From: Phycisphaerae bacterium
GTDB lineage: Bacteria > Planctomycetota > Phycisphaerae > UBA1845 > PWPN01
Assembly: GCA_012729395.1 (NCBI GenBank)
Contig: JAAYDF010000343.1
Location: forward strand, 1-34,780
DNA length: 34,780 nucleotides
Reading direction: 5' to 3'
Shown: positions 33,401-34,780 of the stretch, piece by piece
How the letters are laid out: each line of letters begins with the position of its first letter
Position numbering within the stretch: position 1 is the stretch's first letter
Position numbers and translations under genes: made by a program
The notes under the pieces: model-generated
Told to the model about the DNA's origin: nothing
The model's input: only the letters and a program-made list of their open reading frames with translations
Databases searched by the model: none

Positions 33401-33791
33401 CGGCGTGGCCCTGTGGCTCAAGGGCCGCGCCGCCGCCTGGTACAGCCAGGACTTCCTCGACCTGGCCGCCAAGGCACACCCCATCCTTCGCGAGCACGCC
33501 GACCTGTTCGCCTCCGGCACCTGCGAGCCGCTCGTTCCCACACTGCGGCAGGATGTCTACGCCAATCGCTTCGCGTCACCCGCCCGCACGCTTTACACCG
33601 TCTACAACGCCCGCTTCAGCGATGTGGCCGGCGACCTGCTGCGCATCGAAGGCTCGCCCGATACCGTCGGCGCGGTGCTCGACCTGTGGACCGGCGAACC
33701 GGCCACCACCCGTCGCGAACCGAGCGGCCTGGTGATCCAGGGACGCATCGCCCCCCATTCCACCGGCCTGTTTCTGCTGATCCATCAGTAA
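30489..33791 (+). CDS. Large secreted TIM-barrel protein (DUF6259/alpha-galactosidase-like)
   Basis: An 1100-residue exported protein with a signal peptide (VVVALAALLPAGPLAA, cleavage near AEN). The N-terminal 600 residues are beta-rich, including a possible carbohydrate-binding beta-sandwich (about 25-200) and a galactose-mutarotase-like region (about 440-640, ENAWLRLVARTASGLDVESL). The C-terminal half reads as a barrel: HLGGIDMIDISSWAYNEANG, DGVKLGLYFEGYLIDRRSTL and GADAVYVDQFGTADEHKACW (about 847-866), where Asp in YVDQFG is a catalytic candidate, then a C-terminal beta-domain. This matches the DUF6259-type glycoside hydrolase-like proteins. AGGAGG lies ten bases before the ATG. It stands alone and is probably a polysaccharide hydrolase of unknown specificity. 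Barrel boundaries are approximate. Confidence 0.75.
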   Translation: MIRHRQRLSLPHARISRTSVVVALAALLPAGPLAAENDQGRSLVELGWSDDLRIDRGWLAEPWEVASPDDQAVGRFTPDGAVFSVATPDREMVWTRTTNPVWVADFPFLEIRYEVVGTPAGSLKTVLHLNDDCNGPITPGALNPENPAAQGGTADLGPATAGRHHVVIDLRTVFQSDRVARLSWRLQAGGEPVSLKVDRIAFWATDPREPSAPAAAADAPPLLQAHPLARPAVAAEWKPIALPSGPAFSADRLAWACSARANWPADRTFESALVPFRLQPAGEAALATRLMEIEDIELRGEWQGSELALLLATRQVGSDQASFGRATGPRRGLITSPHRLRVELEYADGTTRQFFPWSPVRHNWSVAALAEPVIVPLDRERQLQRVVVRDRMTFGQVFLLAASINTAQGRVFASLAHEPLHQPARSLDRPQPVPVKWSHEDGRLIVENAWLRLVARTASGLDVESLTLLPAAREIVAAGQGQPLLQVPEPNGAALPLRFENVRAEPDTAELTLRLAWSVAGTADRRVELELTVPREGRLHLRPTLVNQSSAVWTAALTCPNLTACRISPEPNDRYYLLGSRSTSMGWAPLEIDLPYSGLFPLQFMDIYAPRAGGGLALWVEDRDQTPKRFRFRQNPQQTDLSVHYPTVSVPPGKQSTLPPSVLMPHAGDWHEGYQRYRGWIRQVIGPRPARLNSMFFCRRDYPVGGTGFLFDLWRRHYTPRGLIDESQRHLGGIDMIDISSWAYNEANGRVGEYRTNDLGGLDELRRGAQAAHKDGVKLGLYFEGYLIDRRSTLGEAGFPEWQMLNAQGNPVWWGNEQIELFACPGVPAWREAFSETYADVAAATGADAVYVDQFGTADEHKACWSAAHGHPVPSNPLVEERAMLTAIRQALDRQTPHTAVYIEYTPVDTLTGLIDAAFDYGMTHDVRQPHPTKLPLHRYLFPEVSFVQMVGFGIRPIPIGPEDLHRCIFHGVALWLKGRAAAWYSQDFLDLAAKAHPILREHADLFASGTCEPLVPTLRQDVYANRFASPARTLYTVYNARFSDVAGDLLRIEGSPDTVGAVLDLWTGEPATTRREPSGLVIQGRIAPHSTGLFLLIHQ

Positions 33792-33843
33792 CCACGCGAA
33801 CCATACGCCCATCGGCCAGGCGAACAGCCTGCGGCGGGACCCC

Positions 33844-33890
33844 GGCGGGACACAGTCCCGCCCGTAGCGGTCGCCCCCCCGCGGCGACCG
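33844..33890 (+). terminator. Tandem hairpins after the large secreted protein gene
   Basis: GGCGGGAC-ACA-GTCCCGCC (33844-33862) is a perfect 8-base stem. It is followed by CGGTCGCC-N7-GGCGACCG (33868-33890). They begin 53 bases after the stop and probably terminate or stabilise the transcript. No T-run follows. The second belongs to the GTAGCGG-type repeat family of the window. Confidence 0.6.
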
Positions 33891-33947
33891 GCGAATGCTT
33901 CACAGCCACAATGGACGGACCTGACCCGTTGCCCACGTCCTCATATC

Positions 33948-34453
33948 GTAACCGTTCACAGGCACAAGTACGCCACGGCTCGGAGCCTGCCCCGAAGGTA
34001 ACCGTTCACGGGGCTCCGTGTGTCGCGGCGATTCAACACTGCCGACGGGTGACATCGCGAGTAACTTGAACCACCAAGACACAGAGACACCAAGAGGAAT
34101 GATCTGCGAGAATCGAGCGTACGACTGCTTGACCGGGCTGCATTCTTTGTGTCTTGGTGCCTTGGTGGTTCAGCTCGTGAACAGCTACCCGCGAAGGAAC
34201 CACTCAGGCTTTGAACAACGAGGCAACAGAGTAAACGGAGGACGGCCCGCCCCCTCTGTTTCCTCAGTTGCCTCCTTGTTTAATGATCTTTCCCTGGAGA
34301 GATTCGTGAACGGTTACTTCTACAGAAAACAACCACGCAGATGTTAAACACGGAGAAAACAGAGGGAACAGAGGGCAGACTGAATCCTCTCTGTTTCCCC
34401 AGTTTCCTCCTGTTCAATGATGACTCCTGCGGGCTCGGCCCGTGAACGGTTAC
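33948..34453. repeat. Nest of imperfect palindromes punctuated by a 12-base motif
   Basis: The gap 33792-34454 contains no gene I can support. Three imperfect inverted repeats follow each other: 34067-34096 with 34143-34172 (CCACCAAGACAC-type arms), 34211-34241 with 34253-34283 (GAGGCAAC-type arms, about five mismatches in 31), and 34344-34374 with 34386-34417 (related arms). The motif GTAACCGTTCAC occurs at 33948-33959 and 33998-34009, and its complement GTGAACGGTTAC at 34306-34317 and 34442-34453, with a two-mismatch copy at 34177-34188. The last four copies sit at edges of the palindromes. Confidence 0.8.
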
Positions 34454-34454
34454 C

Positions 34455-34652
34455 TCATATCTTCATCCATTCCAGATACAACACCCAACGATCGTCCTCC
34501 TTGCAGATCACCACATGTACGTAGTTCCTGTCGAGCTCGTATCGCCTCTCCACCCTCGCCGCACCTGTCGGCTTCCACCACGCGACCTTCTCAGTCAATG
34601 ATCCGCTCACGCTACCGTCAACATTGCGGAGTTGTCCGATCTGGCTTGCCAT
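34455..34652 (-). pseudogene. 3' fragment of an unknown gene next to an insertion-sequence end
   Basis: A 65-codon frame from ATG 34652, beginning MASQIGQLRNVDGSVSGSL and ending ICKEDDRWVLYLEWMKI. The composition looks like real protein. The frame is open a further four codons upstream, then meets a TGA inside the sequence 34658-34684, which resembles an insertion-sequence terminus. The simplest reading is the C-terminal part of a gene cut by that insertion; an intact small gene is the alternative. I do not recognise the family. Confidence 0.5.
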
Positions 34653-34657
34653 CGCGA

Positions 34658-34780
34658 GGTAGTGTCAAGTCCTGTGTAAATTGCCTCGGGGCATCCTGCC
34701 GGTCCAATTCGTTACGCCACTTTCGATTTCTTCTTTGAGGATGAAGAGGGTAGCGGCACCGTCGGGCACAGGTGTGCCGA
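34658..34780. mobile_element. Probable insertion-sequence end (IS256-like), cut by the window edge
   Basis: GGTAGTGTCAAGTCCTGTGT (34658-34677) followed by AAATTG resembles terminal inverted repeats of IS256-type elements, which often read TTTACACA...TTGACACTACC from the inside. On the minus strand a frame ending SSSSKKKSKVA then TAA at 34712-34714 could be the last codons of a transposase, but too little is present to identify it. The element would continue beyond 34780. The family name is tentative. Confidence 0.45.

Follow-up and report, generated by a model that had tools for sequence, protein, structure and literature searches.

The window, by which we mean the whole stretch of 34,780 nucleotides that was analysed, is the entire contig C327 of a 5.74-Mb draft genome in 370 contigs, and the palindrome nest that it carries is very probably an IS66-family, ISBst12-like non-autonomous element of the MITE type into which another MITE of its own family inserted, with the palindromes as cargo of separate origin. 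Among named genomes, the best match to one of this genome's proteins comes from a Phycisphaerae MAG (74% identity), which makes a planctomycete host likely. The nest has IS66 ends, target duplications, one element lying inside another, homologous copies, and palindrome families in common with the flanks of GxxExxY genes. As a case of nested MITEs it is clear but ordinary, with an unusually readable history; the new part is the tie of its palindromes to the putative GxxExxY nuclease genes.

A sequence-only reading of this DNA had placed the nest at 33948–34453, which is exact, and had described three imperfect palindromes from two arm families, which are real, their arms being built of 8-bp repeats. 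It had passed over the perfect 8-bp direct repeat CTCATATC directly outside both ends of the nest, and also the CCCCGAAG/CCGCGAAG pair that borders 33998–34188. The nest and its surroundings comprise the following features.

33948–34453: outer non-autonomous IS66-type element, composite, 506 bp, with 12-mer inverted repeats at both ends and the perfect 8-bp CTCATATC outside
33940–33947: target-site duplication CTCATATC, left, from the sequence
34454–34461: target-site duplication CTCATATC, right, from the sequence
33948–33959, plus strand: terminal inverted repeat, left end of the outer element, exact 12-mer
34442–34453, minus strand: terminal inverted repeat, right end of the outer element, exact 12-mer
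33998–34188, plus strand: inner element A, 191 bp, inside the outer element, from its genome copies and 8-bp flanks matching at 7/8
33998–34009, plus strand: terminal inverted repeat, left end of A, exact 12-mer
34177–34188, minus strand: terminal inverted repeat, right end of A (GTGAACAGCTAC), 2 mismatches
33990–33997: target-site duplication of A, left (CCCCGAAG), 7/8 against the right
34189–34196: target-site duplication of A, right (CCGCGAAG), 7/8 against the left
34306–34317, minus strand: internal right-end motif between B1 and B2, probably a bypassed end, exact 12-mer
34067–34172: palindrome A, arms 34067–34095 and 34144–34172, CACCAAG-type 8-bp units, 25/29 paired
34211–34283: palindrome B1, arms 34211–34240 and 34254–34283, AACAGAGG-type units, 25/30 paired
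34344–34417: palindrome B2, arms 34344–34373 and 34389–34417, 24/30 paired

Five copies of the 12-mer GTAACCGTTCAC had been counted in the earlier reading, in one orientation at the left of the nest and in the opposite one at the right. The orientations hold, with two plus copies at the left and three minus copies at the right, and four copies are exact, at 33948 (+), 33998 (+), 34306 (−) and 34442 (−), but the fifth, GTGAACAGCTAC at 34177–34188, differs from GTAACCGTTCAC by two mismatches. At up to one mismatch, chance would yield 0.09 matches, and four were reached in none of 100 shuffles; at up to three mismatches the background in the window is high, with 31 found against 19 expected. The internal motif at 34306–34317 is followed by TTCTACAG, 8 bp that correspond to neither of the two left flanks. 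If A and one copy of its duplication are taken out, 307 bp of outer element would remain, with a single left end and two right ends; the duplication adjoins only the outer one of these two. As a DNA strand, element A folds better than all 200 of its shuffles (z −3.67). There was no Rfam match in 33780–34780 and no sigma-70-like promoter was found, and terminator-like sites numbered two against 0.7 expected. The last 125 bp of the window (34656–34780) recur unchanged at the end of contig C206 (L013); this is a repeated sequence at which both contigs break, and it resembles an IS end.

Short, non-coding, multi-copy, and bounded by inverted ends and a target duplication, element A has the properties of a MITE, with eight full-length copies in the genome, the window one included, and more that are diverged or partial elsewhere. 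The closest full-length copies, on C131 and C254, are 98% identical. The 8-bp flanks match at seven or eight positions in six of the eight full-length copies (window 7, C131 8, C34 7, C168 8, C260 7, and C135 7) and at two positions on C254 and C130, where the 191-bp unit has no duplication; outside the window, five of the seven full-length copies have one. C130 holds a composite similar to the nest, whose 319-bp outer pair has a 7/8 duplication and three mismatches at its right end. When the outer window element is added and C130 is left out, seven of eight flank pairs reach at least seven matches, against 9 of 16,000 random pairs. Contig C211 carries a 90% copy of 34318–34453. The genome contains the exact 12-mer 12 times and the reversed control not once. 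Two of the loci in the genome (L001 on C6 and L002 on C128) hold single exact 12-mers with no opposed copy (up to one mismatch) within 3 kb, which may be solo ends or chance.

The suggestion that the motif marks an element boundary recognised by a protein was well placed, since the 12-mer turns out to be a terminal inverted repeat of the IS66 type. It occurs exactly in 109 of 298 genomes of the host's class, with a maximum of 206 copies in one genome (control, 1). We took 11 regions with 12-mers from other class genomes, and in five of them opposed exact 12-mer pairs lie 1468–1647 bp apart, each with a frame of 462–482 codons; four of these five long elements have open antisense frames of comparable length as well. 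All three proteins scanned from the five match the DDE_Tnp_IS66 profile, and the other two were assigned to the IS66 transposases by reading. One long element (L218) has an 8/8 duplication, and the other four match at only two or three of eight flank bases. Among the shorter pairs, those of 415, 255, and 71 bp (the MITEs L219, L220, and L221) have flanks matching at 8, 7, and 8 of 8 positions, those of 237 bp (L222) and 405 bp (L223) at 4 and 3, and the eleventh region (L224) has no proper 12-mer pair. The 71-bp element (L221 206–276, G110:C47) is a very small MITE, consisting of little beyond two IS66-type ends in a palindrome within a perfect 8-bp duplication. On several contigs of two genomes, G246 and G086, the 12-mer stands at a near-constant distance from the contig ends (64–77 and 112–126 bp, respectively), as is to be expected when copies of a single element are where many of the contigs break.

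Seven of 13 genomes in the family, this one included, gave IS66 matches, and an IS66 in one genome of this family (L052) has GTAAGCG ends and a perfect 8-bp duplication. The sole IS66 match in the own assembly is a fragment, covering profile positions 192–269 of 284, with no motif copy within three mismatches in its 3-kb locus; the mobilising enzyme was thus not found in this 370-contig assembly. No intact matching transposase was found in the same genome, which is a draft assembly, and none is required of a MITE. The elements of the window share their terminal inverted repeat with an IS66 transposase gene and have the 8-bp target duplication (8/8 for the outer element, 7/8 for the inner one, and in six of eight A copies; one of five long elements elsewhere has it).

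Within IS66, the nearest likeness is to the ISBst12 group, which has a single-ORF transposase and includes ISDge4 with an 8-base direct repeat (PMC12898284). The window elements resemble this group in their ends, beginning GTAA or GTGA, and in the 8-bp direct repeat (PMC12898284), but they lack a transposase. A further difference is the 12-mer GTAACCGTTCAC, which is that of the IS66 relatives found in the class genomes. Bacterial MITEs, including Chunjie and QMITE2, are likewise ~190–500 bp long and non-coding, with inverted ends, target duplications, and truncated copies (PMC10969869); the nest differs from them in being a nested pair and in carrying palindromes from another repeat system, one linked with a nuclease gene.

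In the course of events that we favour, the 12-mer would be the end recognised by the transposase, and an IS66 transposase acting in trans would have cut there and integrated the DNA, duplicating 8 bp of the target. The composite L1-B1-R2-B2-R3 probably landed first, at CTCATATC, with R2 as an older right end that was bypassed, and element A would then have landed inside this outer composite. The palindromes are very probably members, lacking a gene, of the group of palindromes with 8-bp units found on either side of GxxExxY PD-(D/E)XK nuclease genes.

A search of the genome gave four GxxExxY genes (TIGR04256 / PF13366), on C168, C169, C276, and C317. All four have palindromes on both sides, each gene its own type, with four different arm types. 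Palindromes like A lie on both sides of the gene on C168, and palindromes like B1 and B2 on both sides of that on C169. Palindrome A is identical to the C168 flanks at 83 of 106 aligned positions (score 42), and B1 and B2 are identical to the C169 flanks at 55 of 71 (score 37) and 55 of 75 (score 33), respectively; the two cross comparisons that were run scored 13 (A against C169) and 12 (B1 against C168). The A-type octad pattern has 18 matches in the genome, of which 14 fall within element A or its partial copy on C67, and the remaining four are the arms beside the C168 gene. At this gene (L021 1044), the GxxExxY frame starts inside the palindrome arm, where a GTG is a possible start codon, and the arm and the N-terminus of the protein may overlap. 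In the sequence-only reading, absence of the 12-mer from other copies of the palindromes was to refute the interpretation, a test that it passes in part. The motif does accompany element A, with both ends within one mismatch in six of the eight full-length copies, although the window copy and that at C168:343 have two mismatches at one end, but there is no exact 12-mer beside the GxxExxY flanks of the same arm families, nor beside any of the four genes. The motif and the palindrome are therefore two separate things that travel together in the nest.

Arms beside GxxExxY genes were seen in genomes of several phyla, mostly within 200 bases of the gene. Gapless hairpin scoring of the flanks was too strict, with 12 of 158 flank windows above the 99% control level. 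The best 80 of 86 loci in a set of named genomes suggested a motif of three RCNRAG cores. With fixed spacers, this octad motif reached 2.72/kb in the flanks of the named set against 0.058/kb in the control and stood on both sides in 51, on one side in 15, and on neither side in 8 of 74 loci (6 of 80 with incomplete flanks left out), figures that do not count as a test since the motif was drawn after viewing the same 80 loci. In the class set it gave 14 matches in 26 kb against 7 in 41.6 kb, with both sides in 5, one in 4, and none in 17 of 26 loci (3 of 29 with incomplete flanks left out), and it performed poorly there because the spacers vary from 2 to 4. A variable-spacer motif, drawn from arms seen earlier and coded before any locus of the phylum set was viewed, pointed inward on both sides in 12, on one side in 2, and on no side in 6 of the 20 complete loci of that set (6 of 26 with incomplete flanks left out; L243 is from a class genome already in the pool). 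Its density was 3.25/kb in the flanks against 0.69/kb further away, with 34 inward and 5 outward matches, and at up to one mismatch there were 31 matches in the flanks against one in the controls. By eye, several of the loci scored as none have arms of other sequence. On the sets already viewed, the variable-spacer motif was inward on both sides in 54 of 74 and 22 of 26 loci. Its background is ~1/kb in GC-rich DNA, with 34 matches in the window outside the nest and 5 inside. For the control family PF05635 in the class (25 complete loci of the 30, L281–L310; 5 with incomplete flanks left out), it was inward on both sides in 1 of 25, at 0.93 against 0.82/kb.

A motif-free score of left-right inverted repeats is less specific. 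In 50 of 104 GxxExxY loci it lies above the 99% level obtained from 397 same-locus controls, and so it does in 9 of 20 loci of the phylum set, whose own 100 controls have a higher 99% level of 34. The PF05635 loci also reach the level in 9 of 25 cases; inverted flanks are thus not unique to GxxExxY, and it is the arm code that differs. Genes of PF05635 (four-helix-bundle, 23S rRNA IVP) are often flanked by inverted arrays of their own, with ~7-bp units such as GGGACTTGGGACTAGG and AGCCACTAGCCATTAG, and this appears to be a second gene family with the same layout and a different code. Arm similarity rises with GxxExxY protein similarity, with a rank correlation of 0.305 over 71 loci (a reduced set of the 97 that have arms among 124) that was reached in none of 999 permutations; the arm score with the protein-nearest neighbour was 15.4 against 10.0 for all others and was the higher one in 55 of the 71 loci. 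Some of this agreement can come from whole loci having descended together. We also considered whether IS66 ends in general carry GxxExxY palindromes, but at the class IS66 ends octad arms occurred at 0.47/kb inside, 0.67/kb outside, and 0.75/kb far away (30 loci). With no enrichment there, the tie of these MITEs to GxxExxY palindromes is a local matter of certain genomes and not general.

Between groEL and dnaJ, the gene and its arms are present or absent together. The GroEL end was used to search 100 genomes of the G024 family, and of the 30 loci that this gave, all of which were read, nine have a GxxExxY gene between groEL and dnaJ. Three genomes of one genus include two with the gene (~545 and ~550 bp between groEL and dnaJ) and one without it (~80 bp and no arms). 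Arms were seen in the nine gene-bearing sites, weakly in L254, and in none of the nine gene-less sites viewed of 21. This shows that gene and arms appear or disappear together as one unit, in a pattern compatible with either direction of change; no target duplication was identified for the unit at these sites.

In 39 aligned GxxExxY proteins, E31, Y34, D71, E81, K83, and Q95 are invariant, and the D...ExK core of acidic residues and lysine places the family among the PD-(D/E)XK proteins. The predicted structure (pLDDT 94.8) has its best solved match in SSO0001, which we take to be a Cas4 (Z 9.6, rmsd 4.6 over 103 residues), and the archaeal Hjc resolvase also matches (Z 7.2, rmsd 3.2 over 86 residues), with the reservation that the best Foldseek E was only 1.1e-3 and that Z below 8 may mean only a common arrangement. 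The likeness to the Cas4- and Hjc-type nucleases thus lies in the predicted fold; unlike these, GxxExxY stands alone at ~130 aa and has the invariant GxxExxY helix. From the model it is reasonable to infer a structure-selective or end-trimming nuclease, which may act on the palindromes in a partnership with them. Two GxxExxY proteins tried gave no PADLOC or PHROG match, and one tried gave no PDB sequence match. Among the open-access PMC papers searched, we met no description of a partnership between GxxExxY and palindromes, either in those that matched GxxExxY, the family accessions TIGR04256 / PF13366, or the arm strings (a wallaby linkage map) or in the top-ranked ones on palindromes, MITEs, and PDDEXK; no paper matched the GTAACCGTTCAC 12-mer, and we found no assigned function for the family.

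Several other origins of the nest palindromes have to be weighed. Repeated insertion of a non-coding element into its own copies, as proposed in the sequence-only reading, did take place in so far as the outer element contains A, which has a 7/8 duplication of its own, and C130 holds a similar composite; that it did so with no transposon family behind it is extremely unlikely, since complete IS66 transposons end in the same 12-mer, which refutes it as the whole story. The palindromes might instead be internal MITE sequence, with the likeness to GxxExxY flanks arising from MITEs that landed beside those genes, and the confinement of the A-type octad pattern outside the C168 gene arms to element A and its C67 partial copy (14 of 18 matches) would agree with this. 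Such landings hardly account for four genes of four flanked on both sides by four arm types with no exact 12-mer beside them, for arms flanking GxxExxY in several phyla while class IS66 ends are not associated with arms, or for inward arms on both sides in 12 of 20 newly read loci; this explanation is largely refuted and we regard it as improbable. A classical REP/BIME system with a RAYT (Y1 tyrosine transposase) would share the REPtron layout of dispersed palindromes and a gene flanked by them, and in TIRtrons, too, a gene is bordered by palindromes or inverted repeats of its own (PMC3733652). The palindromes of the window are 73–106 bp long with arms of 8-bp units, and no GTAG or CGTC tag stands at the edges of A, B1, or B2; in distinction from REP and TIRtron elements (PMC3733652), the arms have three repeated 6-bp cores (RCNRAG) 2–4 bases apart with no GTAG tag. 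The sequence-only reading had proposed to look for a REP-type or other transposase gene with such flanks, and the gene found belongs to a PD-(D/E)XK nuclease family instead. We therefore give the REP/RAYT explanation almost no weight, and the reading of the nest as IS66-type MITEs with palindromes as cargo is retained.

What the palindromes do at the GxxExxY genes is a wider question. Gene-less arm arrays are spread over the genome, and GxxExxY genes are enclosed by inverted arrays in most loci read. A tentative reading, to which we give somewhat less than an even chance, is that GxxExxY is the core of a widespread and apparently undescribed selfish cassette of arm, nuclease gene, and inverted arm, in which each nuclease would have an arm code of its own (three RCNRAG-type units) and would spawn gene-less palindromes that disperse through genomes, here in IS66-type MITEs. 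The nuclease might recognise the arms as hairpins or cruciforms and promote their spread or upkeep, as a PD-(D/E)XK counterpart of REP/RAYT, and PF05635 would have the same layout with ~7-bp units. Alternatively, the arms may be regulatory or terminator hairpins only, beside an ordinary accessory gene, which we consider rather unlikely. They do lie mostly less than 200 bases from the gene and could form RNA hairpins, the groEL-dnaJ pattern fits gene loss as well as gain, and PF05635 also often has inverted flanks of other sequence; against this, the genome has palindromes of the same families scattered at places with no gene, likeness between arms follows that between the proteins, and at groEL-dnaJ the nine sites viewed that lack the gene lack arms as well. 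If the nuclease does act on the arms, this would explain a common type of intergenic bacterial palindrome and give GxxExxY a testable function.

Some individual loci elsewhere have notable arrangements. The GxxExxY genes of L169 and L178 stand within long arrays made up of the triple-unit arm and AACGGC-type repeats in alternation. In Draconibacterium orientale (L086), a GxxExxY gene with one arm on each side lies between two consecutive large mutase-type genes, presumably those of the methylmalonyl-CoA mutase subunits, and L097 shows a similar arrangement.
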